Virus record (IMG/VR): IMGVR_UViG_3300030098_002874
Span: 1-26,681 of that record
Source of the DNA: a virus
DNA length: 26,681 nt
Direction: 5' to 3' (one strand)
The notes under the pieces were generated by a model. It was not told the DNA's origin, searched no databases, and saw only the letters and a list, made by a program, of their open reading frames with translations. Shown in pieces: positions 9,247 to 26,121 of the stretch; the stretch's first letter is position 1; the number at the start of each line of letters is the position of its first letter. Both the position numbers and the translations under genes were made by a program.

Positions 9247-10092
9247 ATGGCAAATAATTTATATTCAATTGCTTCTTCAGCTGCAAGTTCTATTGGCGAT
9301 TATGAATCTAAAAAAATTGGAATACAAGAATCTTTAAGAAATATAGATTTTGAAAAAAAGAATTTAGACCTTAATTTGCAAAAAATATCAGCTGTTACAG
9401 ATACATTATCAAAAGGATTGGAATTAGCTGGAACAGTTGCTGTTGGAATGGAAGATACAGCTTCCTTTAAAAAATCCATGCCATACGCTGAAAAAAAATT
9501 ACAAGAAATACATGGTTCTCCAGATACTAAGTTAGAACAAATTGAAAGAGGTAGGTTTAGAAAAGCTATAGATTATTTAAGTGGCACTCCAGCGGAATAT
9601 AAATTTGGCGATATAAAATTTTCTGGAAAAGATGATATAGCTGATTTAAAAGCTTTGGGCAAATTTGGTAAATATGATAATATGTATAATCAAATGTTTC
9701 CAGAAGCTTCTAGTATTGAAAATAAAAATATACCAAAATCTGAATCAGAAAATATACAAACAAATAAACCTGATTCTTCTGTATTTGAAAATGTTAACGT
9801 TATTCCTAAAAAGGATATTCAAAAAACGGATGAATATGGTTTTTCAATTGATTCTAGTTCAAGCAAAGTAAATTCTTATGATGAATATGTTAAGAAGCAT
9901 GGAGAACCTTCAAATGCTATAAAAGCTATGTTTGGTATAATTACTCCTCCTGCTAGCAAAGATGTTCTTGATTTAGATTCAATGTGGGATGATGCAATTT
10001 GGAATGAAATTGAAGATGTTCAAGATTTTAATTTATCTCAACCTGGAGGTGGTTATTATATACAACAAACAGGTCTTGGTAAAAAGGGATAA
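9247..10092 (+). CDS. Putative internal virion protein, first of three
   Basis: 281 residues, not matched to a named family. The N-terminal 75 residues are helical and Ser/Ala-rich (YSIASSAASSIGDYE, then coiled coil ESLRNIDFEKKNLDLNLQKI and GLELAGTVAVG). The middle is Lys/Glu/Ser-rich and probably disordered (about 155-215), and the C-terminus is acidic, ending GGGYYIQQTGLGKKG. Its place between tail/fibre genes and the giant polymerase-like gene, in a block of helical proteins, is where podoviruses encode internal proteins ejected into the cell. That role is inferred from order and composition. Confidence 0.5.
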   Translation: MANNLYSIASSAASSIGDYESKKIGIQESLRNIDFEKKNLDLNLQKISAVTDTLSKGLELAGTVAVGMEDTASFKKSMPYAEKKLQEIHGSPDTKLEQIERGRFRKAIDYLSGTPAEYKFGDIKFSGKDDIADLKALGKFGKYDNMYNQMFPEASSIENKNIPKSESENIQTNKPDSSVFENVNVIPKKDIQKTDEYGFSIDSSSSKVNSYDEYVKKHGEPSNAIKAMFGIITPPASKDVLDLDSMWDDAIWNEIEDVQDFNLSQPGGGYYIQQTGLGKKG

Positions 10093-10094
10093 TT

Positions 10095-10814
10095 ATGACT
10101 ATAGCTGAAAAATATTTATCTAAACATGGAAGATATGGAGATACAGAAATAGTAGAAACTTCAGATGGAAGCCTTTGGCATGTTAGTAATGATGAAAAAA
10201 GATTAATAGAATTATATGGAAAACATGGTGAAGAATTAGTAAATAATGTTGGTTCTGGTACTATTAATCCAACAACAGGTTTAGAAGAAAAATGGGCATG
10301 GTTAATACCAGCTGCTGCTGTTGCACTTAGTTCAATTAGTGGTGCCGCTGCTGGAAAAGCTCAAGAAGATTCTGCTAGAACGCAAGCTGGTTATGCGCAA
10401 AAAGGAATAGATATAGTTGGTGATTCTCTTTCAGCTTTGTCTGAATCTACAAGAAAAGCTAGGGAAGGCATTACAGCTTCATTTGAAAAAAAATTATCTG
10501 ATTTTTCAGATACATTTGGATATAAAAAACAAGGATTAAGAAAGTCTATTGAAAAAGCAAAAAGTGGAACTGGCTTTGCAAATGTTCAAATAGGAGATGA
10601 GGATTTAGAAATGTTAAATAAATCTATAGAATCTGGAATGGGAGATTTGCAATTTGCATATGGTTCTGAAATGGGAAAAGAAAGTGCTAGAGAAAAAATA
10701 GAACGTTCTAAATTGGAAAGTGAAAAACTTAGATTTGAACAAGAAAAAGAACTTCTTAATAAACAAGCAAATTCTTGGTATCTTGGTAAAAATATAATGA
10801 ATCTTTTTAGTTAA
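10095..10814 (+). CDS. Putative internal virion protein with hydrophobic segment (T7 gp14-like position)
   Basis: 239 residues. The first 65 residues include the segment DGSLWHVSNDEKRLIELYGKHGEE. A hydrophobic stretch follows (about 69-87, WAWLIPAAAVALSSISGAA), then long helices to the end, with charged coiled coil ERSKLESEKLRFEQEKELLNK. A membrane-active Ala-rich segment plus coiled coil is the design of small internal virion proteins that form the channel for DNA ejection (T7 gp14 type); no clear sequence match is claimed. It follows the previous gene by two bases. Confidence 0.5.
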   Translation: MTIAEKYLSKHGRYGDTEIVETSDGSLWHVSNDEKRLIELYGKHGEELVNNVGSGTINPTTGLEEKWAWLIPAAAVALSSISGAAAGKAQEDSARTQAGYAQKGIDIVGDSLSALSESTRKAREGITASFEKKLSDFSDTFGYKKQGLRKSIEKAKSGTGFANVQIGDEDLEMLNKSIESGMGDLQFAYGSEMGKESAREKIERSKLESEKLRFEQEKELLNKQANSWYLGKNIMNLFS

Positions 10815-10818
10815 AGTT

Positions 10819-12012
10819 ATGGCAAATTATTACGGAGCTGATGTATTAGCATCACTAAATAGAATATTACAATACAGGCAACAGCGTGAACAAACAAAAG
10901 TGTCTGAATCTTTATCTATGTTAAAAATGGCTCAAGACCAAAGAAATTTAGATAGGTCTTTTCAATTAGAAGAACAAAAATTGGGAATAGGTGATAGCGA
11001 ATTAGCTAAGTCAGTAAGGGAAAATAGAGCATTAAATAAAAGAGTTTTAGAATCTCAAGTTTTAACTAGTGAATTTGCAGCTGAACCAGAACAACTTGAT
11101 TTACAAAGAAAAGCAACTTTAGCTGAAATAGACAAAATTACAGCTCAAACAGAAGAAGCTAGAAGAAAAACATTTGATGCTAGGTTGGATGAATTAGATA
11201 CAATTGCTGAAAGAAATCATGCAGAAATTATGGAAAATGTTATTGGAGCTTTTGGAGTACAAGAATCTATTATAAAGGCTCAAGAAGGAAGTGGTATAAC
11301 GGGTACTTTTGAAAAAAGTTCTTTGTATAAAAATTTAAAAAATAATACATCAAGAAAAGAAAGAATGGAATTTAGTAAAGAAATACAAAATAGTATTTTT
11401 GGAATGGTTCAAACTGAAGGAAAAACTGATGATTTTGAAAATATGTTAATTAATTATGTTAGTGCTAGTATGAAATTAGGCAGTCCCAGATTTGGAAAAA
11501 ATTTAAATGAAAGAATGAAATTTCTTACATCTGAAGAAAAAAAATATAATAAAATATTTAGAGCTGGTTTCGATGAACCTACACTAACAAGATTTCAATC
11601 TTTAGGTGTAGAATTATTAAGAGCAAAAGAAATAGAAAAAAATATACAAAATGAAAGAATTGAAGCTGGAACTGGAGATTATAAATTTGATATAAATAAA
11701 GTTTCTAATATAAAAATATCACCTCAAGATACTCAATTACTAGATGCAGTTATTAGGGGAGGTGAAGATGTTGATAATATTCCACCTTCTTATATGGGGG
11801 CTCAAGGAATGAAAACTATTCAACAAAGTATTTTAAATAGTGAAAAATCTCTCGACCAATTAGCTGTTTTGTATAATAAAGCTATGCAATCTAAAAATCC
11901 AACAGATAAACAAAAAGAATTAATTGATGAGTATGACGATAGAAAAGATGATATTGTTTCTCAAATAAGGATTCAAAAAAGAGTTCTTAATAGAATACGT
12001 TCTGGTATTTAA
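10819..12012 (+). CDS. Putative internal virion protein, mostly coiled coil
   Basis: 397 residues, almost entirely helical. The N-terminus (YYGADVLASLNRILQYRQQR) leads into a long Gln/Glu/Arg-rich coiled coil (about 20-140). A central globular helical part follows, then a second coiled coil near the C-terminus (DEYDDRKDDIVSQIRIQKRV). No membrane helix or enzyme motif. By order and style it would be the middle-sized ejection protein (T7 gp15 position), directly before the giant protein; its stop overlaps that gene's ATG (TAATG). Function inferred only from context. Confidence 0.5.
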   Translation: MANYYGADVLASLNRILQYRQQREQTKVSESLSMLKMAQDQRNLDRSFQLEEQKLGIGDSELAKSVRENRALNKRVLESQVLTSEFAAEPEQLDLQRKATLAEIDKITAQTEEARRKTFDARLDELDTIAERNHAEIMENVIGAFGVQESIIKAQEGSGITGTFEKSSLYKNLKNNTSRKERMEFSKEIQNSIFGMVQTEGKTDDFENMLINYVSASMKLGSPRFGKNLNERMKFLTSEEKKYNKIFRAGFDEPTLTRFQSLGVELLRAKEIEKNIQNERIEAGTGDYKFDINKVSNIKISPQDTQLLDAVIRGGEDVDNIPPSYMGAQGMKTIQQSILNSEKSLDQLAVLYNKAMQSKNPTDKQKELIDEYDDRKDDIVSQIRIQKRVLNRIRSGI

Positions 12013-15000
12013 TGCCTTTAAATCCTCAAAAATCGCTATATAATTCATTGTTTGACGATGAAGATAAGACTATAACTCCTTCTTGGACTCCAGAAGAAAT
12101 AATAAACTATTATAGTGAAATAGATACATCTAGAGCTAAAAAAGCAATAGGTGGAAATTCAAGAAGCTTAGCAAATCCAACTGGAGTTACTTATTCAAAT
12201 CCAAATCAACCAAATCAAGAAAAACCACCTTTACCTAATGATTTGAATCCACAAACAATGCTTGACATTATGGAACAAGCTGATATTCTTCAAGAAGAAG
12301 ATTCTCCAATTCAAGAAGAAAAATCTTTACTTTATAAAACTGGAGAAAATCTTGATGCGATTATTTTTGCAGGTTTAGATGCTTTTGTAGATACTGCAAC
12401 ATTTGGAACAAAAGATTTTCTATTAGAACAAACTTTGGGAAGAATAGACCCCGAAGAATTAGAAGAATATAGAGAAAGAACTGAATCTAGAAAAGAATTA
12501 GCTGCTGGTAAAGTTAGTTCAGCTATAGGTTCATTTGCAGGTTTTGTTAAAGGCCTTCCTTTTAAAGTAGCTGGAAATATTGTTACAAAAGCAACTCTTC
12601 CAGTTGCTAAAAAAATGTTTAAGAAAAAAATAGGAGATAAAGCTTCTACTGAATCAACAAAGCAAATAACTAAAGCTGGTGAGCAATGGGCAGCTAAAGA
12701 AGGTTTATCTAAAAATGCTATAAAATTAGGAACTTCAAAATATACTCAAGTCGCTTCTAAAAGTAGAATGCACCCTATTCTAAAGCAAAAAACATTTAAT
12801 AAAGCGTTAAAAGAAGAATCTGAAGTATTAATACAATCTCAAATGGCTTTAGGTAAAATAACTCAAGCTGAAGCTTCTATAATGAGAGGTATGTTTGACA
12901 CAATGATGAAAAAAGGAGTTCCAATACAAAACATGCTTCAATTAGGTCAAGTAATGTATGGAACTGGGAGAAGAGGTAGATTTGTAGGTCAATTATTAAA
13001 TGATGCTTTTGTATATAGTTTTATTGATGGAGCATTTTCTCTCTCTAATCAATGGAACTATGCAAGAGAGCAAGGTCAGTCTTTTTCTGATGTTTTTTCC
13101 AGTCAACAACTTTTAGAAGATACTTTATTTGGAATGTTAACTGGTGTTGGATTATCTGGTGGAGCTGCTATATTTAAACCATTAGGTAAAATGGCAAATT
13201 CAAGAGTTGATTTTGCATCAGCTATAAATACTTGGAGACAATCAAATCCGTATAAAGGAAAATCAAGACAACAATTAGCTAAAGATTTATTTTATTTCGG
13301 AAATCACGCTTGGAGAAACGGAAAGCCAAGTCAGGTTGAATTTGGTAAAGGAAAGTTTAAAAAAGAAATAGATTTAACTCAAGGTAAAACTCCTTATGAA
13401 AATGCTGAAGATGGAATTAAATCTTTACATAAAGAATTAACACAAGTTCTTGGTGGTAATTATAAAAAAGAAGTTACAGATTATCTTTTAAAAGAAAAAA
13501 ATCAATACGCTAAAGATTTATTAAGTGAATCTTTAAAAGAACCATTTAGAAGTTTTGCGCAGGAATGGCCTAGAATGTTATATGGAGGTATGGTTTTTAA
13601 CGCAGGTATGATAGCCCAAGACGCTTGGAGCACTGGTGAATTATTAGGAGGATATGGCGAAGATTATGACGGGTGGGATGTATTTACAAATTTAATGATA
13701 GGTGCATATACTCAAAGAAAAGACAACACTTCTACATGGGACATGAATACGGATATAAATAGGATTCGTGAAGGTATTAAAATATTAGGTGGAGACCCAG
13801 AATGGAAAAATTCTAATTTTTATATAGATGAAAATTTTCCAATTGCTAGGTCTAGATTTGACAAAGCTTCAAGAAAAAAAGAATATCAAGATTGGTTAGT
13901 TGAAAATGGATTGGCTACAAACGATGAAGCTGAAGGTAGAGAAATGGATGCTTTTGCAGTCCCTGCTGGTGAAAAAAGTGTAAAAATTTCTATGGAAATA
14001 GAAGGTCAAGATTACGGAATATTGCAAGAACTTGTTACTGCGATGAACTCAGACTTCCATACTTCTAAAACATTAGATGCAATAACAGTTAAAGAAGCAA
14101 ATGCAATGCTTAAAAAGTATGAAGAAGTTCATGGTATAAAGAAAGATGACATGAAAGGACTTCGTGATTTGCAAGAAGAATCAACAATAAAAGCAACTGA
14201 AAATTTTGAAAATGAAATGCTTGGTATTATTAAAAAAATTGTTGATGTAGCTGATAAAGAAAGTGAATTTGATGACTTAGCTGGGTTCTTTACAACAACT
14301 ACTGGTGATAAGATTATTACTCCACAAACAATAATAATAGACAAAAAATTAAAAGATAAAATTAGAAAAGGTGATTTTGAATTTCTTGGTTCTGGAGATG
14401 ACGCTGTAAATGAAGTTGAAAAAATGAAAATGAGTCTTCAATCTATTATTAAATCTTTATCAAGTGGATTAGAGGCTATTCAAACAAGTTCTAATGCAAA
14501 TGTAATGGAACTAAAAAACGAAGCATCTTTAAGAAAAATATATGAAATAGTTAGAAATTCAGAACAATCTGTAAATAAAACATTTGAAATGAAAGACCTT
14601 GTCTCTAGGGAATTTAGATATTCTGATTACATGGATTATTTACCGAGTATGGTAAAAAACAAAGCAATTTCAGTTTCTAAAAGTATTCAAGAAATATTTA
14701 GTCCAGAATTTAATGGAAGACAAAAATTGTTAGGAGCTTTGCAAGGAGCTGGCCTTATAGATAAAGATGGGAATATTATAAAAAGTGTAAAACAAATAGA
14801 ATTTTCTAAAGATGTCAAAGATGATGTTTCAAAAGAAGAACAAGCTTCTATGAAAAGAGTATTAGGTCAAATATTGACAATGCAATCTTCTATAAATATT
14901 CCAGACAAATTAACATCTAGCAATACAATTGTAAATAAAGATGGATTTGTTAGATTAAAGAAAACTTTGCAAGGTTTTGGATTAGATGTAAAGAAATTAG

Positions 15001-18000
15001 ATAGTTTTTATTACGAATACCTTATCAATATACTTAACACTAAAAGATTTAAAGATTCAAGATTATCTGGAGGTCAAACAGATTTTGTTTTACAAGCTGT
15101 TTCTTCTGGATTTGGAGAAAATAATTTAAAGCCAGAAGGTACTTCAAATAATTTTATTTTAAAAAGAATTGAAATTGTTGGTAATGATGATTTTTCAACG
15201 AAATACAATAATTTTATATCTGAAATTTCAAATAAGTCTGGTGGATTAGTGGAAATATCAAAAGAAACTATTGATGTCGGAGTTATGGAAATCCCTATTT
15301 TACAAGCTGAAATGAAGAAATCTGCATTAGGTAGAAACACTTATGATTCAAATGTTGCACTTGGGACTGTTCTTGAAAAACTTACTCAAAATGGTTTGGG
15401 ATTTTATTCAGATAGAATTAAAAATTATATTGCACTTGCCCCAGAAATTAATCAAGCAAAAATTCAAAATATGCTTTTTGATTTAGGTGTATTAAAAATA
15501 AATGAAGATAGTGGAAGAATTGAGGTAGAAGAAAAAGAAATACTTACTGAAGATTATTGGAAAAAAGTTGATAAATCATTAAGACAATTTGGATACACAG
15601 AAGGCTTTATTAATCAAAAAATTTCTGAACAAAAACAAATATCGAAACCAAGATTTTTAAATGATTCTAGTGACCATGTTGCAAATCCATCAATGAGCGT
15701 TGGTGAATTTTTTAGAAAATATAAAGTAATAATTAATGATTCAGATGGAAATTTTAAAGAATACAGAGATTATTCTTTAATGAGTCAAGAAAATCAAATA
15801 AAGAAATTTGATGAATTAACAGAAAACTTTCCAGAAATAGAAAATCCAAATGCTATTCTTAAAGGAAATGCTATATCTAATTTAATTAATAATTTAGTTG
15901 CGACAAGAATTATTACAGATGCGGATGGTAATAAAAAACAAGAAACTATACTATATGAAAGTATGGGGAGAAGATTAAGAAATCAAATATTAGAAGATGC
16001 TACTCAAGTATTTTTTGGAAGAAGAAAGCAAGTAGAAGTTCCAGTTGTTGAAGTAGCTGGTACTGGTATAAAATTTACAGACAAGCCTGAATTTCATCAA
16101 ACTAATCCAATATATGAATTATTTAGAGATTTAAAAATTAAACATTATTTATTTGATAATAATGTATTAATAAAACCTTTTAATCCAGAAAATTCAAGAA
16201 TGGAACCTAGGATTGTTAATCTTACTTCTAAAGCTGAGAATTTCCCAGAATGGATGCGAAATGAAGTAAAGATAGTAGAAAATCAAATAATAAATGATTT
16301 GCTAAATCATTCAATAGTAGATGGTATATTAAAAGACAATAGAATAAAAGATAAAGAAGATGAAGTTTTTGAATCTTTAGGAGTTCAAGATGATGTTGTT
16401 TCTATTGGAAAAGACCCCTTAATTAGATTAAATCTTGTTCCAGAGTTTGATAGTATAATTATAACAGGGCAAGATAGAAAAATTCTAGCAGAAGAGTTTA
16501 ATAATTTTTACGAAAGAAATAAAGATTTATATGAAGATACAACAAATATAGAAGCTTTATTAGAAAGAATAAAAGACACAGACCAAGATAGGTATTCCGC
16601 AGATTATGATTATGAATCAATAGCAAGATTGTTAGTAGTCGAAAGAATGTTAAGAAGTGATTCTAATATAAAACTTAAAGAAATTCTAAATAATAATGAC
16701 GCTGATGAAATTGATAAAGTTATTAGTAGGGTAAAACTTGTAAATACAAAGAATTTTATACGAGGTGATTCTGATTATTATTTATCATTAGCAGAGGCAA
16801 GGTTATTAATTAATGATGGTGATGAAGCTGGCAATCTTTTAAAAGATAGAATATATAATAAGAAAGGTAAGTATTCTATTGCTATTTGGGATGATGATAA
16901 TAATGCAAATATAAGAAATGAAGTTGAGCAAATTATAGAAAAATATAAAGATATTTACGATTTAGAAAATTGGTCTTTTGAAAACATAGGAACGGCTCAC
17001 GAAGATGCTAGTGCATTTGATAGTATATCTTTCTTAACAGAAGATGCTATGATGGAATACCATACATTAATGGGACATAATCCTTATTCTAAAAATGCAA
17101 TAAAACCAGTTATTTCATCTATGGGTGAAGGTAAAGCATTATTACTTGGTAAAACTTTGTTTATACATGATTCAAGATTAGAAAATTTTCTTACAGCAAA
17201 TAATTTAGATATTTTACTTACAAAATCTGGGGCTAAAGTATATGATGAAAAATATATTGATGGAAATTCAAACAAAGATGATGAATCTATATTAAATATA
17301 TCTCTTGATAAATTAAAAACAACTAGTAAAAATATTTTAAAACCAAATCAAATTAGATTTGTAGATATAGATGCAATAGGATTAAAACCAGAAAAAGATG
17401 CTTCTATTACATCTGCTAAAGATTCACCAGCTGATGCTAATTATCATAATGCTGAAGAAGGATATTTAAAAATACAAGAAATGCAAAAAGATATATCTTT
17501 TGCGATACAATCAATAGAAGATATTGTTGGAAGTTCTGTCGCTATGAGAGAATTTATGATGGATGAATTGTTACCAAATGGACAAATGCAAAATGATGAT
17601 GGTATTTCTTCTTTACAAACAATTAACAATATGTATCTTTTCTTAGAGCATCATGCTAATGCTAATCCTATGAGCTTTAGTGACAATCAAACAAAAAATA
17701 AAATTTTTAATACATTTATAGATAGATTAATAAATAACACTAGGTCTATTACAAATAGAAGTTCTGGAAGGCATGGTGAATTAAGTAATGTAACAAGTAA
17801 TAGATATGGTGGTCAATCTTATATAATACAAAATGCTCAGAGATTTTTAGATAGAAATGGAAACATGAGAAATCATAGATTATTGCCTACATTGGTAGAT
17901 AAACAAGGCAATATGTTAATGAGAGGTGAGTTAGCTCTTCCATTTCACGAACAAGATACAAAACTTGGAGACCTTGAAGGAAGAACTATAAGAATAGTTG

Positions 18001-20966
18001 ATAATGAAAAAATTATGACTGTTGATGAATTTCTTGCTGATTATAAAGAAAGAGTTGATGAATCAGATAAAAAGAACGAGCTATCTTTATCTGTTCAAAA
18101 TTCCACACTTGGAAGTGTACACAACTTTTTAAAAGATGCTAACAAAGCAACTGGTAGAAAATATCAAATTGGTATTATTTCAAGAAGAAATCCAAGAACA
18201 AGACCTAATGATATTACATTGCTTGGATTAGCTGGATTTTTAGATAAGGGATATGGTAATTCTACAATGGTTAATAGTCTTGATATAGTAAACATATATG
18301 AAGGTGATTATGATGCTGATAAGGTAGATTATTTCTTTGCTCATAATGATTATATGTTTGACCATATTGAGAGAACTAATAAATATTGGGTTCAAGGAAT
18401 AGACCCAAAGAAATGGAAAACCCCAGCTTCGTTTACGTTTTTACAAGATACAGAAACTCAAAGTGAAAAGATTATAGAATCTATGGGCAATGCAGATGCT
18501 TATAAAAAAATGATAGGCATTGTTCAAAAAACTCCAAGACAAATAAATTATTTAGATATGCTTTCTAATAAAAATTGGACAGCTAGCCCAGAAGAATCAG
18601 AAGCTTGGTCAAATTATAGAAGGGAAAATAAAGATGGGACTGTTGATGGGCCTGGAATTTTATTTAGAACAACAGATAGTAAAAATGGTGATGAAAGAGT
18701 AATTACCATTGATAGTAAAAACATAGATTTTTTTATACGAAGTGCTTTAGAAATGCAATATGTTGTGGATGGTAAAAATAATTTAAATCCAAATATTGCA
18801 AATGATATATTTAATTGGAAAGATAATTTCTTATTTCCATTAATAAAACAATCAGAAAGACCAGATAATTTATCATTTAATCAAAGAAAAGACATCCAAG
18901 AAAAAGGAACTTCTAATAATAAAAGAATAAGAATATTTTCAAGAATGGTTAAAAAAGATGGTAAGTGGACAGAAGATGTAAACATTGAATTAACTAAAGC
19001 TGAAAAAGAAATTATTAAATCCTTAATGGATAATTACAACAAAACAATACTACAAGCAACTGGTAAAGATGTTTATGATGGGGCTGATGTTAGAAGAATG
19101 TCTTATGATGATTTTATGCAAGCTGGTCAGGGATTTATAGATTTTCATAAAGATATTCAAAATAAAGTGTATAGAAAATTAACTAAACAAAGAAAATTAA
19201 GCGGTAATGATTTTAAAGAATTAAAAAGAATATTTGGAGCTGTTACTGAAAAAAAACCACAAAAAGGGAAATGGTATAGAAGAACATTCTTAAACAAAGA
19301 CCCTTTTGAATATGTTCGTAATAATGCAGAAAGATTTATTAGTGAAGAAACAACAAATCCAAATGGAACATATATAGACCAATTAATTGTTCAATTAGCT
19401 AGAAAAAATCATTTTGAAGAAAAACAAGATTTTAGATTACTAGGAGAAGATAAAATACAGCTTGATGATTGGTATAATGATATGATAATGGAATCGTATA
19501 AAGAATCAGCTGACAAACATAATGAAAAATTAACTAATGCAGTTTTAAGCCATAATAAAAAAGTTGGAAGTGTTGTTTATTTAAGTAGAAAAATAAACGA
19601 AATTGCTAGGTCTAAATACAAACAAGAATGGAAAAATAAAAAAATTAAATCTTTAAAATATGTTATAAATAAACTTCAATCAGAAATAAATACTGAATAT
19701 GGAAAAAGAGTAAATATAAAAGACCCTCAAAAATATGAATTTTTAGATTTAATTGCAGAAGGAAAAGAACTAACAGAATCAACAATATATTATCATTCTA
19801 TACATTCTTTATTAAAATCTGAATTAATAGGTGGTTATAAATTTGATAATTTTTATCAAATGCTTGAAGGTAATGCTAAAGATGATTTGGCAATGTTTAA
19901 AGATTTGAGAAGAAAAATTTATGGAGACCATGGAAGTATAAAAGATATACTTGAATTTGGAGCTAAAACAGTAATTAAAGATAAAGAATTAAAAAAGCAA
20001 TTAGAAAGATATGATACTGATGATTTTTATAAATGGCAAGTGGAATTTTTAAAAGAAAAAACTGAACAACATGGATTAGAATTTATGTTAGCTTTTATGT
20101 CTCCTTCGTTAAATAGAAAAAAGATTGGAGTTTTTAATAATAGAGTAGTTCCTATTCCATATGTTGATTCAAAAAGATTTAGAATGGGAATAAGAGTTCT
20201 TACTGAAATTGCTTTTAAAGATTTTTCATCTGAAGATAATCCTATAAGAGTAGCTAGAAAACTTGCTGGTGAAGCAGAGGACAAAACAATACCTTCTCAA
20301 ATATTATTAACAAAATTAATTGAATCAGAAAATCATTATAGAGGCTATTTTGATAGAAATCACAATCTTTTTACTTCAAGAGAAAATGATGTAAGACAAT
20401 ACGGATTAGGTAAATTTGATTCTTATTTAGAAAGAAAGCTAAGTTCTTATACTGATATAAATTGGACAAGGAATATGTTTCCAAGACATACATTAAACAT
20501 AATGAATAATTCAGTTCTTGATTTTTATCAAGAAACAGCAAATTTAGCTGGTGATGAATTTTCTATTGGATTTCAAAAATTTCTTGATGAAATAGATTTA
20601 TTAAATAGAGACTTAGCTACAAATGTTTACTTAGACCCTTATGATTTTATAGAGAGAAGGCTTAAATTAGACAATATGTATATAAAAATGGTTCAAACTG
20701 AAATAAATGCAGTATCGGAATCAAAATCTGTTGTACCAATACAACAACATGATTCTTTTAAATTATCAAAAGGATTTAAATATTTACAAAGAGCAGCTGC
20801 TGATAAAGGTCTTAAATTAGAAGTAAATGAATCTAGTTTAATTTCAAAATATAATAAATTGCAACAACTTGAAAGAGAACTCAACACAGCTCATGACGGA
20901 AGATTACTTGACCATACAAATAAAGATGCTGAAGATTGGGCTGAAATGAGTGGGTGTATTAAATAA
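12012..20966 (+). CDS. Giant single-chain double-psi beta-barrel RNA polymerase, probable virion RNA polymerase
   Basis: 2984 residues. Two blocks resemble the catalytic barrels of multisubunit-type RNA polymerases in single-chain form (YonO and crAss-like phage enzymes). The beta'-like block has a basic RxP motif (Arg2059-Asn-Pro2061, within SRRNPRTRPND) and, 38 residues after that proline, YEGDYDADKVDYFF, whose Asp2099, Asp2101 and Asp2103 form the DxDxD metal site. In E. coli beta' the same RxP-to-NADFDGD gap is 33 residues. The beta-like block upstream (about 1660-1745) has EDASAFDSISFLTEDAMMEY, KPV (Lys1698), LLGKTLF (Lys1714) and a closing LLTKSGAKV (Lys1742), resembling the paired-lysine barrel. 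Residues 1-600 are helical with hydrophobic patches (about 373-393, 522-545), like ejected virion proteins. The last 870 residues are unassigned. Position beside internal virion proteins suggests packaging and early transcription in the host; catalysis is inferred from motifs. Confidence 0.75.
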   Translation: MPLNPQKSLYNSLFDDEDKTITPSWTPEEIINYYSEIDTSRAKKAIGGNSRSLANPTGVTYSNPNQPNQEKPPLPNDLNPQTMLDIMEQADILQEEDSPIQEEKSLLYKTGENLDAIIFAGLDAFVDTATFGTKDFLLEQTLGRIDPEELEEYRERTESRKELAAGKVSSAIGSFAGFVKGLPFKVAGNIVTKATLPVAKKMFKKKIGDKASTESTKQITKAGEQWAAKEGLSKNAIKLGTSKYTQVASKSRMHPILKQKTFNKALKEESEVLIQSQMALGKITQAEASIMRGMFDTMMKKGVPIQNMLQLGQVMYGTGRRGRFVGQLLNDAFVYSFIDGAFSLSNQWNYAREQGQSFSDVFSSQQLLEDTLFGMLTGVGLSGGAAIFKPLGKMANSRVDFASAINTWRQSNPYKGKSRQQLAKDLFYFGNHAWRNGKPSQVEFGKGKFKKEIDLTQGKTPYENAEDGIKSLHKELTQVLGGNYKKEVTDYLLKEKNQYAKDLLSESLKEPFRSFAQEWPRMLYGGMVFNAGMIAQDAWSTGELLGGYGEDYDGWDVFTNLMIGAYTQRKDNTSTWDMNTDINRIREGIKILGGDPEWKNSNFYIDENFPIARSRFDKASRKKEYQDWLVENGLATNDEAEGREMDAFAVPAGEKSVKISMEIEGQDYGILQELVTAMNSDFHTSKTLDAITVKEANAMLKKYEEVHGIKKDDMKGLRDLQEESTIKATENFENEMLGIIKKIVDVADKESEFDDLAGFFTTTTGDKIITPQTIIIDKKLKDKIRKGDFEFLGSGDDAVNEVEKMKMSLQSIIKSLSSGLEAIQTSSNANVMELKNEASLRKIYEIVRNSEQSVNKTFEMKDLVSREFRYSDYMDYLPSMVKNKAISVSKSIQEIFSPEFNGRQKLLGALQGAGLIDKDGNIIKSVKQIEFSKDVKDDVSKEEQASMKRVLGQILTMQSSINIPDKLTSSNTIVNKDGFVRLKKTLQGFGLDVKKLDSFYYEYLINILNTKRFKDSRLSGGQTDFVLQAVSSGFGENNLKPEGTSNNFILKRIEIVGNDDFSTKYNNFISEISNKSGGLVEISKETIDVGVMEIPILQAEMKKSALGRNTYDSNVALGTVLEKLTQNGLGFYSDRIKNYIALAPEINQAKIQNMLFDLGVLKINEDSGRIEVEEKEILTEDYWKKVDKSLRQFGYTEGFINQKISEQKQISKPRFLNDSSDHVANPSMSVGEFFRKYKVIINDSDGNFKEYRDYSLMSQENQIKKFDELTENFPEIENPNAILKGNAISNLINNLVATRIITDADGNKKQETILYESMGRRLRNQILEDATQVFFGRRKQVEVPVVEVAGTGIKFTDKPEFHQTNPIYELFRDLKIKHYLFDNNVLIKPFNPENSRMEPRIVNLTSKAENFPEWMRNEVKIVENQIINDLLNHSIVDGILKDNRIKDKEDEVFESLGVQDDVVSIGKDPLIRLNLVPEFDSIIITGQDRKILAEEFNNFYERNKDLYEDTTNIEALLERIKDTDQDRYSADYDYESIARLLVVERMLRSDSNIKLKEILNNNDADEIDKVISRVKLVNTKNFIRGDSDYYLSLAEARLLINDGDEAGNLLKDRIYNKKGKYSIAIWDDDNNANIRNEVEQIIEKYKDIYDLENWSFENIGTAHEDASAFDSISFLTEDAMMEYHTLMGHNPYSKNAIKPVISSMGEGKALLLGKTLFIHDSRLENFLTANNLDILLTKSGAKVYDEKYIDGNSNKDDESILNISLDKLKTTSKNILKPNQIRFVDIDAIGLKPEKDASITSAKDSPADANYHNAEEGYLKIQEMQKDISFAIQSIEDIVGSSVAMREFMMDELLPNGQMQNDDGISSLQTINNMYLFLEHHANANPMSFSDNQTKNKIFNTFIDRLINNTRSITNRSSGRHGELSNVTSNRYGGQSYIIQNAQRFLDRNGNMRNHRLLPTLVDKQGNMLMRGELALPFHEQDTKLGDLEGRTIRIVDNEKIMTVDEFLADYKERVDESDKKNELSLSVQNSTLGSVHNFLKDANKATGRKYQIGIISRRNPRTRPNDITLLGLAGFLDKGYGNSTMVNSLDIVNIYEGDYDADKVDYFFAHNDYMFDHIERTNKYWVQGIDPKKWKTPASFTFLQDTETQSEKIIESMGNADAYKKMIGIVQKTPRQINYLDMLSNKNWTASPEESEAWSNYRRENKDGTVDGPGILFRTTDSKNGDERVITIDSKNIDFFIRSALEMQYVVDGKNNLNPNIANDIFNWKDNFLFPLIKQSERPDNLSFNQRKDIQEKGTSNNKRIRIFSRMVKKDGKWTEDVNIELTKAEKEIIKSLMDNYNKTILQATGKDVYDGADVRRMSYDDFMQAGQGFIDFHKDIQNKVYRKLTKQRKLSGNDFKELKRIFGAVTEKKPQKGKWYRRTFLNKDPFEYVRNNAERFISEETTNPNGTYIDQLIVQLARKNHFEEKQDFRLLGEDKIQLDDWYNDMIMESYKESADKHNEKLTNAVLSHNKKVGSVVYLSRKINEIARSKYKQEWKNKKIKSLKYVINKLQSEINTEYGKRVNIKDPQKYEFLDLIAEGKELTESTIYYHSIHSLLKSELIGGYKFDNFYQMLEGNAKDDLAMFKDLRRKIYGDHGSIKDILEFGAKTVIKDKELKKQLERYDTDDFYKWQVEFLKEKTEQHGLEFMLAFMSPSLNRKKIGVFNNRVVPIPYVDSKRFRMGIRVLTEIAFKDFSSEDNPIRVARKLAGEAEDKTIPSQILLTKLIESENHYRGYFDRNHNLFTSRENDVRQYGLGKFDSYLERKLSSYTDINWTRNMFPRHTLNIMNNSVLDFYQETANLAGDEFSIGFQKFLDEIDLLNRDLATNVYLDPYDFIERRLKLDNMYIKMVQTEINAVSESKSVVPIQQHDSFKLSKGFKYLQRAAADKGLKLEVNESSLISKYNKLQQLERELNTAHDGRLLDHTNKDAEDWAEMSGCIK
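17004..17246 (+). other. Beta-like catalytic barrel segment of the giant protein
   Basis: Codons about 1665-1745. Order of marks: acidic DA-x-x-F motif (Asp1665), LTEDAMMEYHTLMG, Lys1698-Pro, a Gly/Lys stretch with Lys1714, then LDILLTKSGAKVY with Lys1742. This spacing resembles the first barrel of crAss-like phage polymerases, where two lysines contact the RNA 3' end region. Which lysines are the catalytic pair needs a structure comparison. Confidence 0.6.
18171..18350 (+). other. Beta'-like catalytic barrel segment with DxDxD metal site
   Basis: Codons 2054-2113. RRNPR at 2058-2062 is followed by TLLGLAGFLDKGYGN, SLDIVNIYEG and the triad Asp2099/Asp2101/Asp2103, coded at 18306-18320. The middle position carries Ala and the following residue is Lys2104, as in the DFDxDK form seen in phage enzymes rather than DFDGDQ of cellular beta'. 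Confidence 0.75.
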
Positions 20967-23800
20967 TGGATTGTAATAAAGCAACAAAAAAATCTCAATT
21001 AATAAATGCAGTAAATACATGGCTTGGGGATAAAGAAACTTTAAGTAATTTTAAAAATCCTCATGCAGCTATGTTTAAAATGTGGGAATCTGAATTTTAT
21101 GTTCCATTAAAATGGGCTATATTAGATGAAGGTGAAAAACTTTTAACACCTGGAAAAATAAAACAATTTACTGAAAGTTTATATAGATTAAATAAAAGAG
21201 TAAAGCAAGGCGACATTGCAAGTAATGATTTTGCAAAGTTGTTTTGGACTGGTACTACTTTTGGTAAAAGAGACCCAGCAATAGGTTCAATGCTTTCAAG
21301 ATTGCAAGATGTATCTGGTCAAGATAAAGTTAGAACAATGAAATCAGCTGAAGACTTTAAAGAAATAACAGATATGATTAAAGTTATATCTAAAGTAACC
21401 GGGCCTATTGATAAAGCTATTTTTAATAGGGATGTAAAAAAATTAAGAAAATTAGATTTAAATCTTATTAAAGCTATTGACAAACAAAACAATAGAGAAA
21501 TTTCAACTGCTAGAAAAGAATTATCAGAATTTATAGATAGCAATAAAAAATTAAAAGCATTTGATGATTTTATTGTATTAATTGAAACTGGTATGCCAGA
21601 TATATTAATGAAATATAGGGAAAAAATTGAAAGCGGTGAATTTAGACCTATGAGAATTAAAGATTCTAAAAAATTCCTTGAAAAAGTTGATAACGGTGAA
21701 GCCTTATTAAAAATAAATGAAGTTAAATTTTTAGAAAAAATTATGTCTGAATTAGGCATGGATATAAAATATGCAGACCCTTTAATGAAATATAATAACA
21801 TGATGGATAATCAGTATGATAATTTAAAAAAGGGAATAAATTCCGTTATTAATAGTAAAATAAAAAGATTAAAATTTAACAGAGGAATAGAAAGTGAAAA
21901 TGTTAAATTATTAAAAGAAACAAGAGAAAGATTAAATAAAGAATTAATGCCTAGATATGAACAAGGGTTTTTTCCTCATTATGTAAGGGATTTAAATGCT
22001 ACTTTTATGGAAGGATTGTTGCCAAGATTAAAAAAATTAGATTCTTCTGGTGAAGATTTATTATTAAGAAAAACATCTACTCTTAAAGAAGATATACAAT
22101 CAATAAATGAATGGGTTACTAATCACGCAAAAAGTAGAAAACAAGAATATGCTCCAGAATATTCAAGAAACTTTTTTGATGTTGTTAAAGGATATATAGA
22201 CGATATAAATCATTTTAATACTTCTGCTTTTCTAGAAGAAGCTTTTATGGATGCAAGACTTGATGTATTAAAAATGTATAGAGATGGCGATAAAGGCCCA
22301 ACTCAATATATGACTAATGTTTCAGATTTTATTGCAGATATGCATAAATCAGCTAATGGTGATACTAAAATGTCAGAATCAGCTCAATTAGCAATGAAAA
22401 CATTACTTGCTTTTGAATTTACATCTAAACTTGGATGGAATGTTCGTGGAGCAGCTAGAAACACAACTCAAAGAGCTTTGGATTACATAAGATTTGGATT
22501 TACTAAAAGTATTGCAGCGGTTAATTACTTTGATAGTATTAAAGGTGAAGGTGGAGTAAGGGAAGCTGATAAAATATTAGATGAAGCTGGATTTTTATTT
22601 AAAGAAATAACACCAGAACTTTTAGAAAGTGGCATTAAAGAAAAACCTAGTATGTTTAAATCTAGGTATATGGATGAAGATGGTAACATACAATATAAAG
22701 AAGAACATTTTGGTCATAAAATAGCAGAAGGTATGAGTTGGGTTTCAAAAAAATCATCTGTATTGCACAGAGCTGCTGAAAATTGGAATAGAAAACATAC
22801 TTTTAAAGTTGCTTATGGAAGTTTACATAAAATATTAATGGAAAGTTCTGAATTTAGGTCTCAAGTAGCAAATAAAAAGCAATATTTAGAAACTAGAGCT
22901 AATGAAATAGCTACTAATTATGCAAAAAATATGGTTTTGGCAAATCATTTTGATTATGCTGATTATGCTAAATCCAAACTTATGAGAGGCGATATTAAAT
23001 CATTAGGGAAATATGGAAACATAACAAGATTTATGTTTCAATTTCAACATTATGGAATGGAATTTTTAGAAAGAAATACTTCTATTTATAAAGAAGCTTC
23101 TGCTGATGTTAGGTCTGGTGCAAGTTTTGGTGAAATGCAAGGAGTCCACCAAGCAATGAAAATGGGAATGGCTTATGGGCTAGCTCCTTTAATTGCTTAT
23201 ATTGTTATGGGATTAGATGTTGATAATTTAGTAGAGCATGATACAGCAAAAAGAATTTCACAATGGGGTACTTTATTTTCTAATGACCCAGAAAAAATTA
23301 ATGAAGCTTTTTATGGCAAAGGGCCAATTATTAGTACATTTGGAGGCCCTCTTCTTGGGGACATGATTGACCTAGGAATGTCTATAGGCATGATTAATGA
23401 AACGGAACCTGAAGCTTGGCATGAGTATTTATATGCTGTTCAAGGATATAAGTATGACCATGACTTGACACACACAGGAAGCAGAACTAAAATGCTTAAT
23501 AATCTTATTTCTATGAGTTCATTTGGCAAAAGAGCTTACAATAGACATATTCCAATGTTATTTGAAAACGATAGAAGCCCAATATTAAATTCTTTTAGAG
23601 TTGGACTTAATGAACTATCATTTTATCCTACTTCTAAAATTAATTTACCATTTAACCTTTATGAAGGAAAACCTGTTTTTGATATAGCTGGTGAAAAATG
23701 GCTAGATGTAACGGGGACAAGAAGAAAAAAGAAGTCTGGTGCAAAGCCTGTTAATTATAGAATGTTAAAGTACATGAGGGAATTGGATAAAAAGAAGTAA
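20966..23800 (+). CDS. Large helical protein following the polymerase, probable ejected virion protein
   Basis: 944 residues, mostly helical and Lys-rich. The N-terminal half (about 100-330) is coiled and highly charged. Around 485-510 is SKLGWNVRGAARNTTQRALD, resembling the 'N-R-A-N-TQ' segment of domains found near the C-terminus of large polyvalent phage proteins (LPD38-like; from memory). A hydrophobic helix (about 733-749, GMAYGLAPLIAYIVMGL) and a Gly-rich stretch (STFGGPLLGDMIDLGMSIGM) could insert in or line a membrane. Basic C-terminus (GTRRKKKSGAKP). No nuclease, lysozyme or methylase motif was found. It starts in the giant gene's TAATG and is the last gene before the terminator-like hairpin, so it is probably made and packaged with the polymerase. 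It may be a partner subunit or a DNA-ejection protein. Confidence 0.55.
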   Translation: MDCNKATKKSQLINAVNTWLGDKETLSNFKNPHAAMFKMWESEFYVPLKWAILDEGEKLLTPGKIKQFTESLYRLNKRVKQGDIASNDFAKLFWTGTTFGKRDPAIGSMLSRLQDVSGQDKVRTMKSAEDFKEITDMIKVISKVTGPIDKAIFNRDVKKLRKLDLNLIKAIDKQNNREISTARKELSEFIDSNKKLKAFDDFIVLIETGMPDILMKYREKIESGEFRPMRIKDSKKFLEKVDNGEALLKINEVKFLEKIMSELGMDIKYADPLMKYNNMMDNQYDNLKKGINSVINSKIKRLKFNRGIESENVKLLKETRERLNKELMPRYEQGFFPHYVRDLNATFMEGLLPRLKKLDSSGEDLLLRKTSTLKEDIQSINEWVTNHAKSRKQEYAPEYSRNFFDVVKGYIDDINHFNTSAFLEEAFMDARLDVLKMYRDGDKGPTQYMTNVSDFIADMHKSANGDTKMSESAQLAMKTLLAFEFTSKLGWNVRGAARNTTQRALDYIRFGFTKSIAAVNYFDSIKGEGGVREADKILDEAGFLFKEITPELLESGIKEKPSMFKSRYMDEDGNIQYKEEHFGHKIAEGMSWVSKKSSVLHRAAENWNRKHTFKVAYGSLHKILMESSEFRSQVANKKQYLETRANEIATNYAKNMVLANHFDYADYAKSKLMRGDIKSLGKYGNITRFMFQFQHYGMEFLERNTSIYKEASADVRSGASFGEMQGVHQAMKMGMAYGLAPLIAYIVMGLDVDNLVEHDTAKRISQWGTLFSNDPEKINEAFYGKGPIISTFGGPLLGDMIDLGMSIGMINETEPEAWHEYLYAVQGYKYDHDLTHTGSRTKMLNNLISMSSFGKRAYNRHIPMLFENDRSPILNSFRVGLNELSFYPTSKINLPFNLYEGKPVFDIAGEKWLDVTGTRRKKKSGAKPVNYRMLKYMRELDKKK

Positions 23801-23835
23801 GAAGGGCTAGTTAAATACCAACCCTTCCTACTTTT
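23796..23835 (+). terminator. Bidirectional intrinsic terminator between converging operons
   Basis: AGTAAGAAGGG (23796-23806) pairs with CCCTTCCTACT (23822-23832) at 10 of 11 positions around a 15-base loop. TTTT follows on the + strand (with the T of the stem). Read on the - strand, the stem is followed by a T-rich run (from 23795 down to about 23790). It sits exactly between the last + gene, whose stop it partly includes, and the last - gene. A weaker second hairpin (TAGCAT 23835-23840 with ATGCTA 23854-23859) covers the stop of the - strand gene. Confidence 0.7.
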
Positions 23836-23851
23836 AGCATTAATAAGGAGG

Positions 23852-24043
23852 TTATGCTAAAGCTTTTGGTTCTGTTTTTTCTTTATGCTCTAATAATTTA
23901 ATTAAAGCACTTGTTGAATCAAGTAAACCTTTTAATAATTTTATTTTTTGTTTATCTATTTTTTCTGATTTATAACTATCTATATCTTTTAACAAAGCAC
24001 TTATTTTATATAAATAATTTGCATATTGTTCTGTATTTTTCAT
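23852..24043 (-). CDS. Small helical hypothetical protein
   Basis: 63 residues, almost all helix and rich in Lys, Leu, Ser and Glu (YANYLYKISALLKDIDSYKS, LLKGLLDSTSALIKLLEHKE). No cysteine, membrane segment or motif. GGAGG (24051-24055 on the + strand numbering, read on -) lies 7 bases before its ATG, and its ATG overlaps the stop of the resolvase gene by 4 bases (ATGA). Last gene of the - strand operon. Function unknown. Confidence 0.6.
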   Translation of the reverse strand: MKNTEQYANYLYKISALLKDIDSYKSEKIDKQKIKLLKGLLDSTSALIKLLEHKEKTEPKALA

Positions 24044-24519
24044 TTTGATTCCTCCATTTCTGTGTACATTCCGTACATTGTTATTAATACTGCATCAGCA
24101 TTCCATAGCGTTGCAGGTTTTTCTGTATAAATTGATGCTATTTCTTTTAGTTTATTTTTTCTATCTTTTTTTATTTTAGGTAATTTAAATTCCATTTTAT
24201 CTTGCCAAAATTTCATCCATTTTTGTGGTGATACTTCTACTATTTTATTTATTCCTTTTATTGAATTAAGTATTCCTAACCATGCTCCGTAATTAACTCC
24301 AAACTTAAACAATGAACTTCTTCCATCGTGAGGCATTGCATGAACTTTTTCTATATATACTATTGCTTCTTTAGATTTATATGCATTTAAAGCCATAGAA
24401 ACAGTTAGCCTTCTACCACTTATTAGATTGTGGCATTTATGCGTATGTATATCTTTTTGTTCTGAATTAGTAAAGCATAATGCTCCACTAGCACCAGGGT
24501 CTATTCCTATTATTGTCAT
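24040..24519 (-). CDS. RuvC-like Holliday junction resolvase
   Basis: 159 residues. RNase H-fold resolvase motifs are present in order: IIGIDPGASGAL with Asp7, VYIEKVHAMPHDGRSSLFKF with Glu57, the VEVSPQKWMKFW block near 94-105, and NADAVLI with Asp142. Asp-Glu-Asp are the usual metal ligands of RuvC-type enzymes, and the 'EKVHAMP-x-S-F-FG-x-YG' segment is typical of phage versions. It would cut branched DNA made during replication or before packaging. AAGGA lies 6 bases before the ATG. It overlaps the upstream gene by 4 bases, with the helicase one gene further upstream, consistent with a replication/recombination operon. Confidence 0.88.
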   Translation of the reverse strand: MTIIGIDPGASGALCFTNSEQKDIHTHKCHNLISGRRLTVSMALNAYKSKEAIVYIEKVHAMPHDGRSSLFKFGVNYGAWLGILNSIKGINKIVEVSPQKWMKFWQDKMEFKLPKIKKDRKNKLKEIASIYTEKPATLWNADAVLITMYGMYTEMEESK

Positions 24520-24815
24520 TGTGCATCCTTTCTATGTGAATATTTATGTGGACTTTTAACATATTTCTTTTTATATGTTCTTGTTGGTTTAACTGGTGGT
24601 TCATACTTGTCTCCTAATATTTCTCCATCGAAAACTTTTATTACTTGGTGAAGTAGTTCCGATTCCGACTTTATCATATTATTGTTTTTGTATTGACTAC
24701 AACCTTTACTCATTATTTCTTGAGGTATAGGTTTTGGGTGCCCCTTTTTTGCTAAAGAAAACCAATAGCATTTGGAGGAGACTTCAAAGAAGCACCCATA
24801 ACAACTTTTATACAA
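24516..24815 (-). CDS. Small Cys-rich protein with TTG start, possible zinc binder
   Basis: 99 residues. It starts with TTG (24815-24813) and shares 8 bases with the helicase end; no in-frame ATG or GTG lies close upstream, and the next internal Met would remove the cysteines. The N-terminus carries Cys5, Cys8, Cys16 and Cys39 (CYGC, KCYWF, KGCSQY) around a PKPIPQEI segment, a four-cysteine layout that could hold one zinc ion. The C-terminus is basic (TRTYKKKYVKSPHKYSHRK), suited to DNA or RNA contact. Its position between helicase and resolvase suggests a replication accessory role, but no family is assigned. Confidence 0.6.
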   Translation of the reverse strand: MYKSCYGCFFEVSSKCYWFSLAKKGHPKPIPQEIMSKGCSQYKNNNMIKSESELLHQVIKVFDGEILGDKYEPPVKPTRTYKKKYVKSPHKYSHRKDAQ

Positions 24816-26121
24816 CGTTATCTTTTTCCGCCATGTTTGAGTTCATATAGAATTTACACCTACCTCCATTAAATCCTACTGCATGAGTCCCTATTTTTCC
24901 GTACCTACTTTTAGAAACTATGATTTCACTCTTATATGGATTAAACTTTTCACTATCAAAATTATGTCCATAGAATACAAACATAGCTGATTCAGCAGTT
25001 TGTTCGATTACACCTGACTCTGCATAATCACTCATACGAGGTCTAGGGTCAAATCGTTTTTCTATTTCTCTATTTAATTGCGATACAAGTATTGATGAAC
25101 AATCTTCTTGTTTACATATCCATTTATATTCTTGCATTATTTTTTCTATCTCGAACCTTCTTCCTTCTTTAACACCTTGAACATCTATTAACTGTATGTA
25201 ATCATCTATAACAACATCAGGTTTATGCTTTGCTATTTCTCTCAAGCAATCATCTAATGTTCTTACATTGTCATACATTAAAAAGTTTTCATAGTTATGT
25301 TTCATCTTTTCAGATACTAATTCAAACTCTTCTTTACTAGTTTCAGATAGGTCGTTTCGTCTTATATCTCCGTATTTTAATCCATTTGATTCCATTACCA
25401 CCATCTTCTTCAGCATTTCCGTATTACTCATTTCTCGATTAAATAACATTACTCTATATCCTTGTTCAATCAACCCTCTAATAATATTTATTACAAGAGT
25501 TGTTTTACCATGGCCGGGCCTACCGCCTAGTACAGTTATTTCTTTACGAGTCATTCCACCTGCAAATGTATCAAGATGTCCAAGATTAAATGGTATAAGA
25601 TTAGAATCTTCTTCAACTGTTGCTCTCATTTCATCAACTAATACATTTATATCTCTTTGTTTAGATGGTTGTATTTGTCTTAATTCATCAATCAATTTGC
25701 TATGCTTTTCTAATATACTCCCTACGTTTTTATAATCTTCATAACTTGCATTTAACAAAGCTTCTGCTGATTTAGCTGTTTCTCTTTGTATATATTTTTC
25801 CCATACTATTCTTGCATATTGTTCTATATTTTGTTTACTAGCTACACTTTCAGTTAATCCTGTTATGTAGTATGCTTTACTATCTCCATGTATATCTTTT
25901 ACTTTGTTACATAAAGTTACAAAATCTATATCTACTTTATCTTTATATAACTCTGACATTGATTCCCATATTATTCTATTGTCTGTATTGTAAAATGCAT
26001 CATTATCTCTTATCCAAGCCATTGCTACTTCTTGTTCTCTTTCGCCTCCTTCTATAATGCACCCAAGTAAAGCTTCTTCAGCCTCTTGAGCGGAAGGGGC
26101 TAATTTTATTTCTTTAGCCAT
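24808..26121 (-). CDS. dnaB: Replicative DNA helicase, DnaB family
   Basis: 437 residues, normal length for a phage DnaB. The N-terminal domain (about 1-110) has APSAQEAEEALLGCII, the usual opening of DnaB. A linker follows, and then the RecA-like domain: Walker A GGRPGHGKTT (199-208, Lys206), glutamate-bearing FNREMS (228-232), Walker B PDVVIDDYIQL (301-311), SSILVSQLNRE (342-352) and the RPRMSDYAESGVIEQ motif (360-374), with SKSRYG (403-408) near the usual arginine-finger position. It unwinds DNA at the replication fork as a hexamer. AAGGAG lies 5-6 bases before the ATG. No separate primase or helicase loader is seen in the window. Confidence 0.93.
   Translation of the reverse strand: MAKEIKLAPSAQEAEEALLGCIIEGGEREQEVAMAWIRDNDAFYNTDNRIIWESMSELYKDKVDIDFVTLCNKVKDIHGDSKAYYITGLTESVASKQNIEQYARIVWEKYIQRETAKSAEALLNASYEDYKNVGSILEKHSKLIDELRQIQPSKQRDINVLVDEMRATVEEDSNLIPFNLGHLDTFAGGMTRKEITVLGGRPGHGKTTLVINIIRGLIEQGYRVMLFNREMSNTEMLKKMVVMESNGLKYGDIRRNDLSETSKEEFELVSEKMKHNYENFLMYDNVRTLDDCLREIAKHKPDVVIDDYIQLIDVQGVKEGRRFEIEKIMQEYKWICKQEDCSSILVSQLNREIEKRFDPRPRMSDYAESGVIEQTAESAMFVFYGHNFDSEKFNPYKSEIIVSKSRYGKIGTHAVGFNGGRCKFYMNSNMAEKDNVV

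Follow-up and report, generated by a model that had tools for sequence, protein, structure and literature searches.

A giant two-barrel RNA polymerase, probably packaged in the virion, and a candidate hairpin promoter in a phage lineage outside Crassvirales

We analyzed a 26,681-bp stretch of viral DNA (IMG/VR record IMGVR_UViG_3300030098_002874; "the window" denotes this whole record) and find that its late operon ends with a gene for a 2984-residue protein, almost certainly a single-chain two-barrel RNA polymerase, and a gene for its fixed partner of 944 residues. Open reading frames (ORFs) of 281, 239, 397, 2984 and 944 residues lie on the plus strand and span positions 9247–23800, exactly where the original prediction from this DNA had placed them, and the replication genes (RuvC-like and DnaB) run toward them on the minus strand as it had also said. 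The explanation that we favor as a whole, and consider likely to be correct, is that a two-barrel DNA-dependent RNA polymerase would be produced late and enter the virion along with the 944-residue partner and smaller cargo proteins. It would reach the cell before or together with the DNA and there transcribe the early (replication) operon prior to any phage protein synthesis. The candidate start signal in relatives would be a single GC hairpin with a TATC-type loop, 51–110 bp before the first early ORF. Packaged two-barrel polymerases of the crAss type are already known; what is new here is the GC hairpin of the control region.

The assignment as a polymerase comes from the fold. We modeled residues 1440–2560 (16329–19691, plus strand) with AlphaFold2 from an alignment of 19 sequences, obtaining a predicted local distance difference test score (pLDDT) of 72.7 and a predicted template modeling score (pTM) of 0.69. 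A Foldseek search of the PDB with this core model returned the virion polymerase of the crAss-like phage phi14:2 (6vr4_A) as the top match (E 7.8e-9) and QDE-1 as the next (2.3e-5). VIA aligned the core to 6vr4_A with a Z score of 11.6 over 697 positions, covering model residues 26–1036, and gave lower Z scores for plant RDR2 (9.8), QDE-1 (9.5), P74 gp62 (9.3) and P32 gp64 (7.8); the last two we take to be close to the enzymes of phage P23-45. QDE-1 and RDR2, RNA-silencing polymerases, are cellular eukaryotic enzymes that copy RNA. They share the single-chain two-barrel fold, but their structural match to the window core is weaker than that of 6VR4. In BFVD the top two matches, at 20 and 17% identity, were unnamed viral proteins; those from uncultured crAss-like phages ranked next. 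Pfam detected no T7-like domain in the 2984-residue protein, the modeled core being two-barrel, and neither Pfam nor PHROGs gave a tape-measure family match.

The catalytic residues agree with the fold. The 99 cores found include 53 non-redundant ones, and all 53 retain the three aspartates of a DxDxD motif (D2099, D2101 and D2103 of DYDAD, 18306–18320, plus strand) as well as two lysines, K1698 and K1714 (KP...GKT, 17103–17153, plus strand). The motif lies in the second barrel, which resembles double-psi beta-barrel (DPBB) A, while the lysine stretch would belong to the first, DPBB-B-like barrel; a KP...K counterpart of this stretch is conserved in the crAss alignment A4. Ahead of the catalytic motif is a conserved stretch, RNPRTRPND (R2059–D2067, 18186–18212, plus strand), whose P2061, T2063, N2066 and D2067 are unchanged in 53/53 cores. 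A long helix in bridge-helix position (residues 2147–2184, 18450–18563, plus strand; model helix 708–745) may, going by the model, be the bridge helix. Both the polymerase and its partner are under purifying selection, with ratios of nonsynonymous to synonymous substitution (dN/dS) of ∼0.15 and 0.08–0.09, respectively, measured against two 97%-identical relatives. These data bear out the earlier description of the gene as polymerase-like, and we infer that its product is catalytically active.

Ordinary sequence searches revealed none of this. The 2984-residue protein matches nothing in Pfam or PHROGs, tblastn with it or with the 944-residue partner gave zero matches in 50,697 phage records, and neither has a relative in the cellular genome collection, which therefore offers no clue to the host. 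Scanning viral contigs with the polymerase returned only two 98% copies, and the partner as query returned 25 loci; a search with the core profile yielded 77 loci, taken from the best 80 of 96 matched stretches. Searching PDB sequences with A1, A2 and A7 produced chance matches only, for example to caspases, with crAss A4 recovering 6vr4 as expected. Homology to crAss polymerases at the sequence level appears to be reached by profile comparison only: hhalign against 11 crAss polymerases, using gap-trimmed alignments, gave a score of 57.9 and a probability of 78.9, as compared with a mean score of 18.1 and a maximum of 26.5 in 60 column-shuffled controls. In the printed profile alignments R-x-P...DYDADK falls on crAss R-x-P...DFDIDK, with RNPRTRPND aligned to crAss YRIPTE and DYDAD to crAss DFDID. 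Comparison of polymerase segments 1–620, 600–1460 and 2400–2984 with the partner, gp65 and crAss profiles, run without shuffles, gave nothing convincing. We also observed that two of the relatives, L098 and L095, come nearest to the profile of crAss polymerases (hmmsearch E values of 1.7e-4 and 1.5e-3 with filters off, 53-sequence set) and are possible bridges for a phylogeny.

The polymerase gene (12012–20966, plus strand) is directly followed by the gene for the 944-residue, all-helical protein (20966–23800, plus strand), and this order is constant. A complete polymerase is present in 58 of the 77 loci (2511–3002 residues, median 2874.5, the shortest being a frame-broken copy, L069). In all 61 loci with at least 1.5 kb after the polymerase, the partner lies downstream on the same strand at a distance of −41 to 16 bases, with one exception of 666; in that locus (L105), the only one of the 61 with a large gap, a 218-residue ORF sits between the two genes. 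In all 47 loci with at least 1.5 kb after the partner, the next ORF of at least 150 residues is convergent, and DnaB and RuvC homologues occur in 40 and 41 of these 47, respectively. Among eight further loci the partner adjoins the polymerase in all six that hold a partner ORF. One of these six, L187 (G017), is in a record of 104,488 bp, so that the same gene order occurs in a record of twice the usual size, which may represent either a larger genome or an assembly that was doubled. The original prediction had named the 944-residue gene as a partner of the polymerase; the loci show it to be a fixed one, and more than 50 non-redundant sequences now link the catalytic core with it.

The same gene order is found in phi14:2, where gp67, the polymerase gp66 and the associated protein gp65 are followed by opposite-strand early genes, and where the sequence record annotates all three proteins as detected in virions by tandem mass spectrometry. 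The phi14:2 polymerase is described as active in vitro and as driving rifampicin-resistant early transcription (PMC10136315), and in crAss001 polymerase-associated proteins are reported among those detected by virion mass spectrometry (PMC10172136). As in phi14:2, the polymerase gene in the window belongs to the last part of the late operon, flanked by a putative virion-protein set on one side and a large associated protein on the other and convergent with early genes, and its product shares with gp66 (6VR4) the single-chain two-barrel fold and a DxDxD motif followed by K and preceded by an R-x-P stretch. It differs in that the two proteins have only ∼9–10% identity in structure alignments and no ordinary sequence-search match, and in that the chain is longer (2984 versus 2180 residues) and the partner shorter (944 versus 1421 residues). 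The fold together with the synteny indicates that what the window encodes corresponds, in a different lineage, to the virion polymerase set of crAss phages. By this analogy packaging and early transcription are probable, and injection of the polymerase would accompany them.

An alternative is that the polymerase, although made late, acts only inside the infected cell, for example on late genes, with its position beside tail genes being coincidental. Some two-barrel phage polymerases are reported to be non-virion enzymes, such as gp64 of P23-45 (PMC10770324). However, in all loci examined the polymerase is at the late-operon end beside its constant partner, a large helical protein, like the packaged phi14:2 set, and no other polymerase family was found among those genes of related records that were scanned. 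We consider a purely intracellular role unlikely. P23-45 gp96 is described as a two-barrel virion polymerase that forms a single chain with the tail tape measure protein (PMC10770324). The protein in the window likewise joins a two-barrel polymerase to a long, apparently non-enzymatic region, but its barrels are central, whereas the gp96 polymerase is described as N-terminal and without a clamp (PMC10770324).

Structural comparison of the partner itself gave a lead only. Its model (pLDDT 71.1) had no Foldseek match under E 0.001, and Pfam searches of 18 partner sequences gave scattered weak matches only. The VIA list, among other helical proteins, contains T7 gp16-type core proteins (9jyy_I, Z 5.2; phiM1 8vb2_A, 4.6; E1004 9vvp_O, 4.6); since all these matches are below the trusted level, kinship to ejection proteins stays a lead.

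We next consider which phages carry this module. The window holds neither a TerL nor a portal gene, and these were read from a 54-kb relative, G004, which has TerL phrog_38, portal phrog_156 and small terminase phrog_51 and no major capsid protein family match. The corresponding phi14:2 proteins are TerL phrog_6681, portal phrog_6547 and major head protein phrog_11589, and BLASTP of the G004 TerL against the phi14:2 TerL gave no match. The G004 TerL matches 523 phage records, all at <60% identity, the 20 listed being at ∼23–25%. One relative, G014, is 56,030 bp long with a 123-bp direct terminal repeat and is therefore likely complete at 56 kb; other long relatives are 47–56 kb, apart from the 104-kb G017 record. 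The TerL and portal families differ from those of phi14:2, and the genomes are about half the size of that of phi14:2 rather than near the 90–105 kb of Crassvirales. These markers place the lineage, with genomes of about 50–56 kb, outside Crassvirales. The taxonomy check that had been suggested, run on this relative, gave families other than those of phi14:2, and together with the fold, the invariant residues and the synteny it makes a crAss-type polymerase in a non-crAss phage well supported. If the enzyme is packaged, packaged two-barrel polymerases extend to a lineage that the markers tested separate from Crassvirales. Among open-licence PMC papers, the searches listed none whose title concerns these phages.

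Having identified a putative early-transcribing enzyme, we asked where it might start. Hairpins were surveyed in 23 records picked for length among loci already fetched, a non-random set, and a first search, which required a stem with five or more G-C pairs and a loop of 3–6 bases, found 16 hairpins where Markov sequences gave 1.1 in total. Eleven of these are in the control region between early and late genes, four, each a second hairpin, are near the start of the late operon, and the last falls among the tail genes of G004. Ten of the 11 control-region hairpins have, on the early strand, a TATC or TATAT loop with the C-rich arm first, and these ten sit 51–110 bp ahead of the first early ORF; in the eleventh (G008) the loop is ATA and the gene context is unclear. 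Weaker stems with a like loop type and place occur in G004, G015, G016 and G025. Eighteen of the 23 records hold the small terminase gene, which marks the adjacent control region, and 15 of these 18 match the hairpin patterns, once each, 323–624 bp from the terminase start; the patterns, which were written after earlier hairpins had been seen, occur in 0/5 records without that gene. A laxer rule applied over 1.5 kb identified a TATC-loop hairpin followed by ATTTTC, with different stem sequences, in G013, G017 and G019, as the sole hairpin listed in G013 and as one of two places in each of the others. In all, a GC hairpin is present in 18/18 control regions, with the loop TATC or its variants TATAT, TATAA and, once, ATA.

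The stems show compensatory change. Covariation was scored on 11 distinct TATC sequences, leaving out the TATAT, TATAA and ATA forms and G006, which equals G003 over this stretch. In these stems 95.4% of cells pair, and four of six pairs have changes on both sides. The covariation score was 0.406 versus 0.127, with 0/500 shuffles as high and slid controls at or below 0.067. Because the hairpin sequences are related, the shuffle result does not count separately for each of them, yet one pair varies from C-G to G-C, A-U and U-A, which is hard to explain without a paired structure. Given where it lies, how it is oriented and that its loop is conserved, the TATC hairpin is the best candidate for a promoter of the polymerase, and by analogy with N4 we tentatively propose, at somewhat less than even confidence, that the enzyme recognizes it as a promoter. 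With the same reserve, early transcription may start at a supercoil-extruded DNA hairpin of the CCCCCC-TATC-GGGGGG type.

This proposal has a precedent in N4 (Schitoviridae). N4 has three early promoters, and an early promoter of the N4 type would start transcription ∼11 bases from the hairpin center and require the hairpin. N4 is reported to inject a T7-like polymerase, the active site of which can be superimposed on the T7 polymerase one; ahead of early genes this enzyme recognizes extruded GC hairpins that have a 3-base loop (PMC4496689). The relatives of the window have the same kind of element, a GC-rich short-loop hairpin before early genes with the stem kept by compensatory change (18/18), and if the proposal holds, they would share with N4 a giant virion chain and GC-hairpin, short-loop early promoters. 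The differences from N4 are an unrelated fold of the modeled enzyme core, a single TATC-type hairpin per control region and loops of mostly 4–5 bases. If true, hairpin promoters would have two separate origins, one alongside the T7-like enzyme of N4 and the other alongside a polymerase related to cellular ones. A concrete promoter candidate also makes the start-site choice of two-barrel virion polymerases testable.

Several observations weigh against a packaged, early-transcribing polymerase that starts at this hairpin. No virion protein or transcription data for the lineage were found in the sources searched. The hhalign probability to crAss polymerases dropped to 25.4 with less trimmed alignments and to 1.2 with the first 19 sequences, and comparison of the partner with gp65 family profiles gave a score of 25.3, which 2/60 shuffled controls matched. 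Residues 1–1440, about half of the chain, have no recognizable enzyme domain in Pfam or PHROGs. This would suit a protein with a role in structure or ejection whose polymerase domain has degenerated and is not catalytic, a reading that we regard as highly improbable in view of the three aspartates and two lysines invariant in 53/53 cores and of the purifying selection. Word counts before early genes recover Shine-Dalgarno words and no promoter motif. In the window and its near relative G001 the control region is outside the record, and the hairpin is thus a prediction for the window's own phage. Lastly, 3–6 T are present in the 8 bases after the hairpin stem, so that a terminator or attenuator role is possible.

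As alternatives to a promoter, the TATC hairpin could act in termination or attenuation, belong to a replication origin or be bound by another protein, and we give these taken together an even chance. A terminator scan listed the G010 hairpin as terminator-like, and the hairpin is at the start of the replication operon. On the other hand, it is in a divergent region ahead of the first early gene, a place that offers little to terminate; its orientation is uniform in records with a TAT-type loop; and it has a conserved loop sequence, for which an intrinsic terminator has no need. A sigma-70 scan of G010 stayed below its shuffles (24 versus 29.2).

A second GC hairpin is present in G003, G005, G006 and G014, ∼150 bp before the small terminase gene, and is followed by TCGTTAAT. 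Read from the late strand it is of the GGCCGC-TGGC-GCGGCC type, with GGCCCC arms in G003 and an example in G014 at 41195–41210 (L119). It is possible that it is a late-side control element.

Upstream of the polymerase, the proteins of 281 (9247–10092), 239 (10095–10814) and 397 residues (10819–12012), all on the plus strand, are possible cargo or ejection proteins by position, with homologues in 11, 40 and 15 of the 77 loci. The first two have zero family matches in Pfam or PHROGs and the third none above the curated cut-off. The likeness of these three to internal virion proteins claimed in the original prediction comes down to position, as they also lack a transmembrane-like segment. Its view that the first 600 residues of the polymerase look like an ejected protein found no backing either: there was no family match, and a strict-rule transmembrane-like segment was found zero times in the window and in 1/58 relatives. 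The use of Shine-Dalgarno signals was not clear in the window, with its mostly coupled late operon (5/17 genes versus 2.7 expected), but it was in five related records (22/40, 14/33, 20/38, 24/40 and 9/23 genes versus 6.0, 5.1, 5.1, 7.0 and 3.7), and AAAAGGAGAG is enriched before early genes.

Between the convergent operons is a terminator-like hairpin with a 17-pair stem (23795–23833, minus strand; one found versus 0.1 expected). The convergent replication block beyond it encodes a RuvC-like Holliday junction resolvase (24040–24519, minus strand; phrog_1770, E 2.2e-22) and a DnaB-like helicase (24808–26121, minus strand; Pfam DnaB_C, 7.7e-45; phrog_19), and includes a methyltransferase gene. 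At the left record edge, a partial ORF (1–516) has an end that by eye presumably resembles a tail-fibre or spike C-terminal chaperone domain. In G004, an 869-residue protein matching tail fibre PHROGs lies upstream of the gene block that is also downstream of this ORF in the window.

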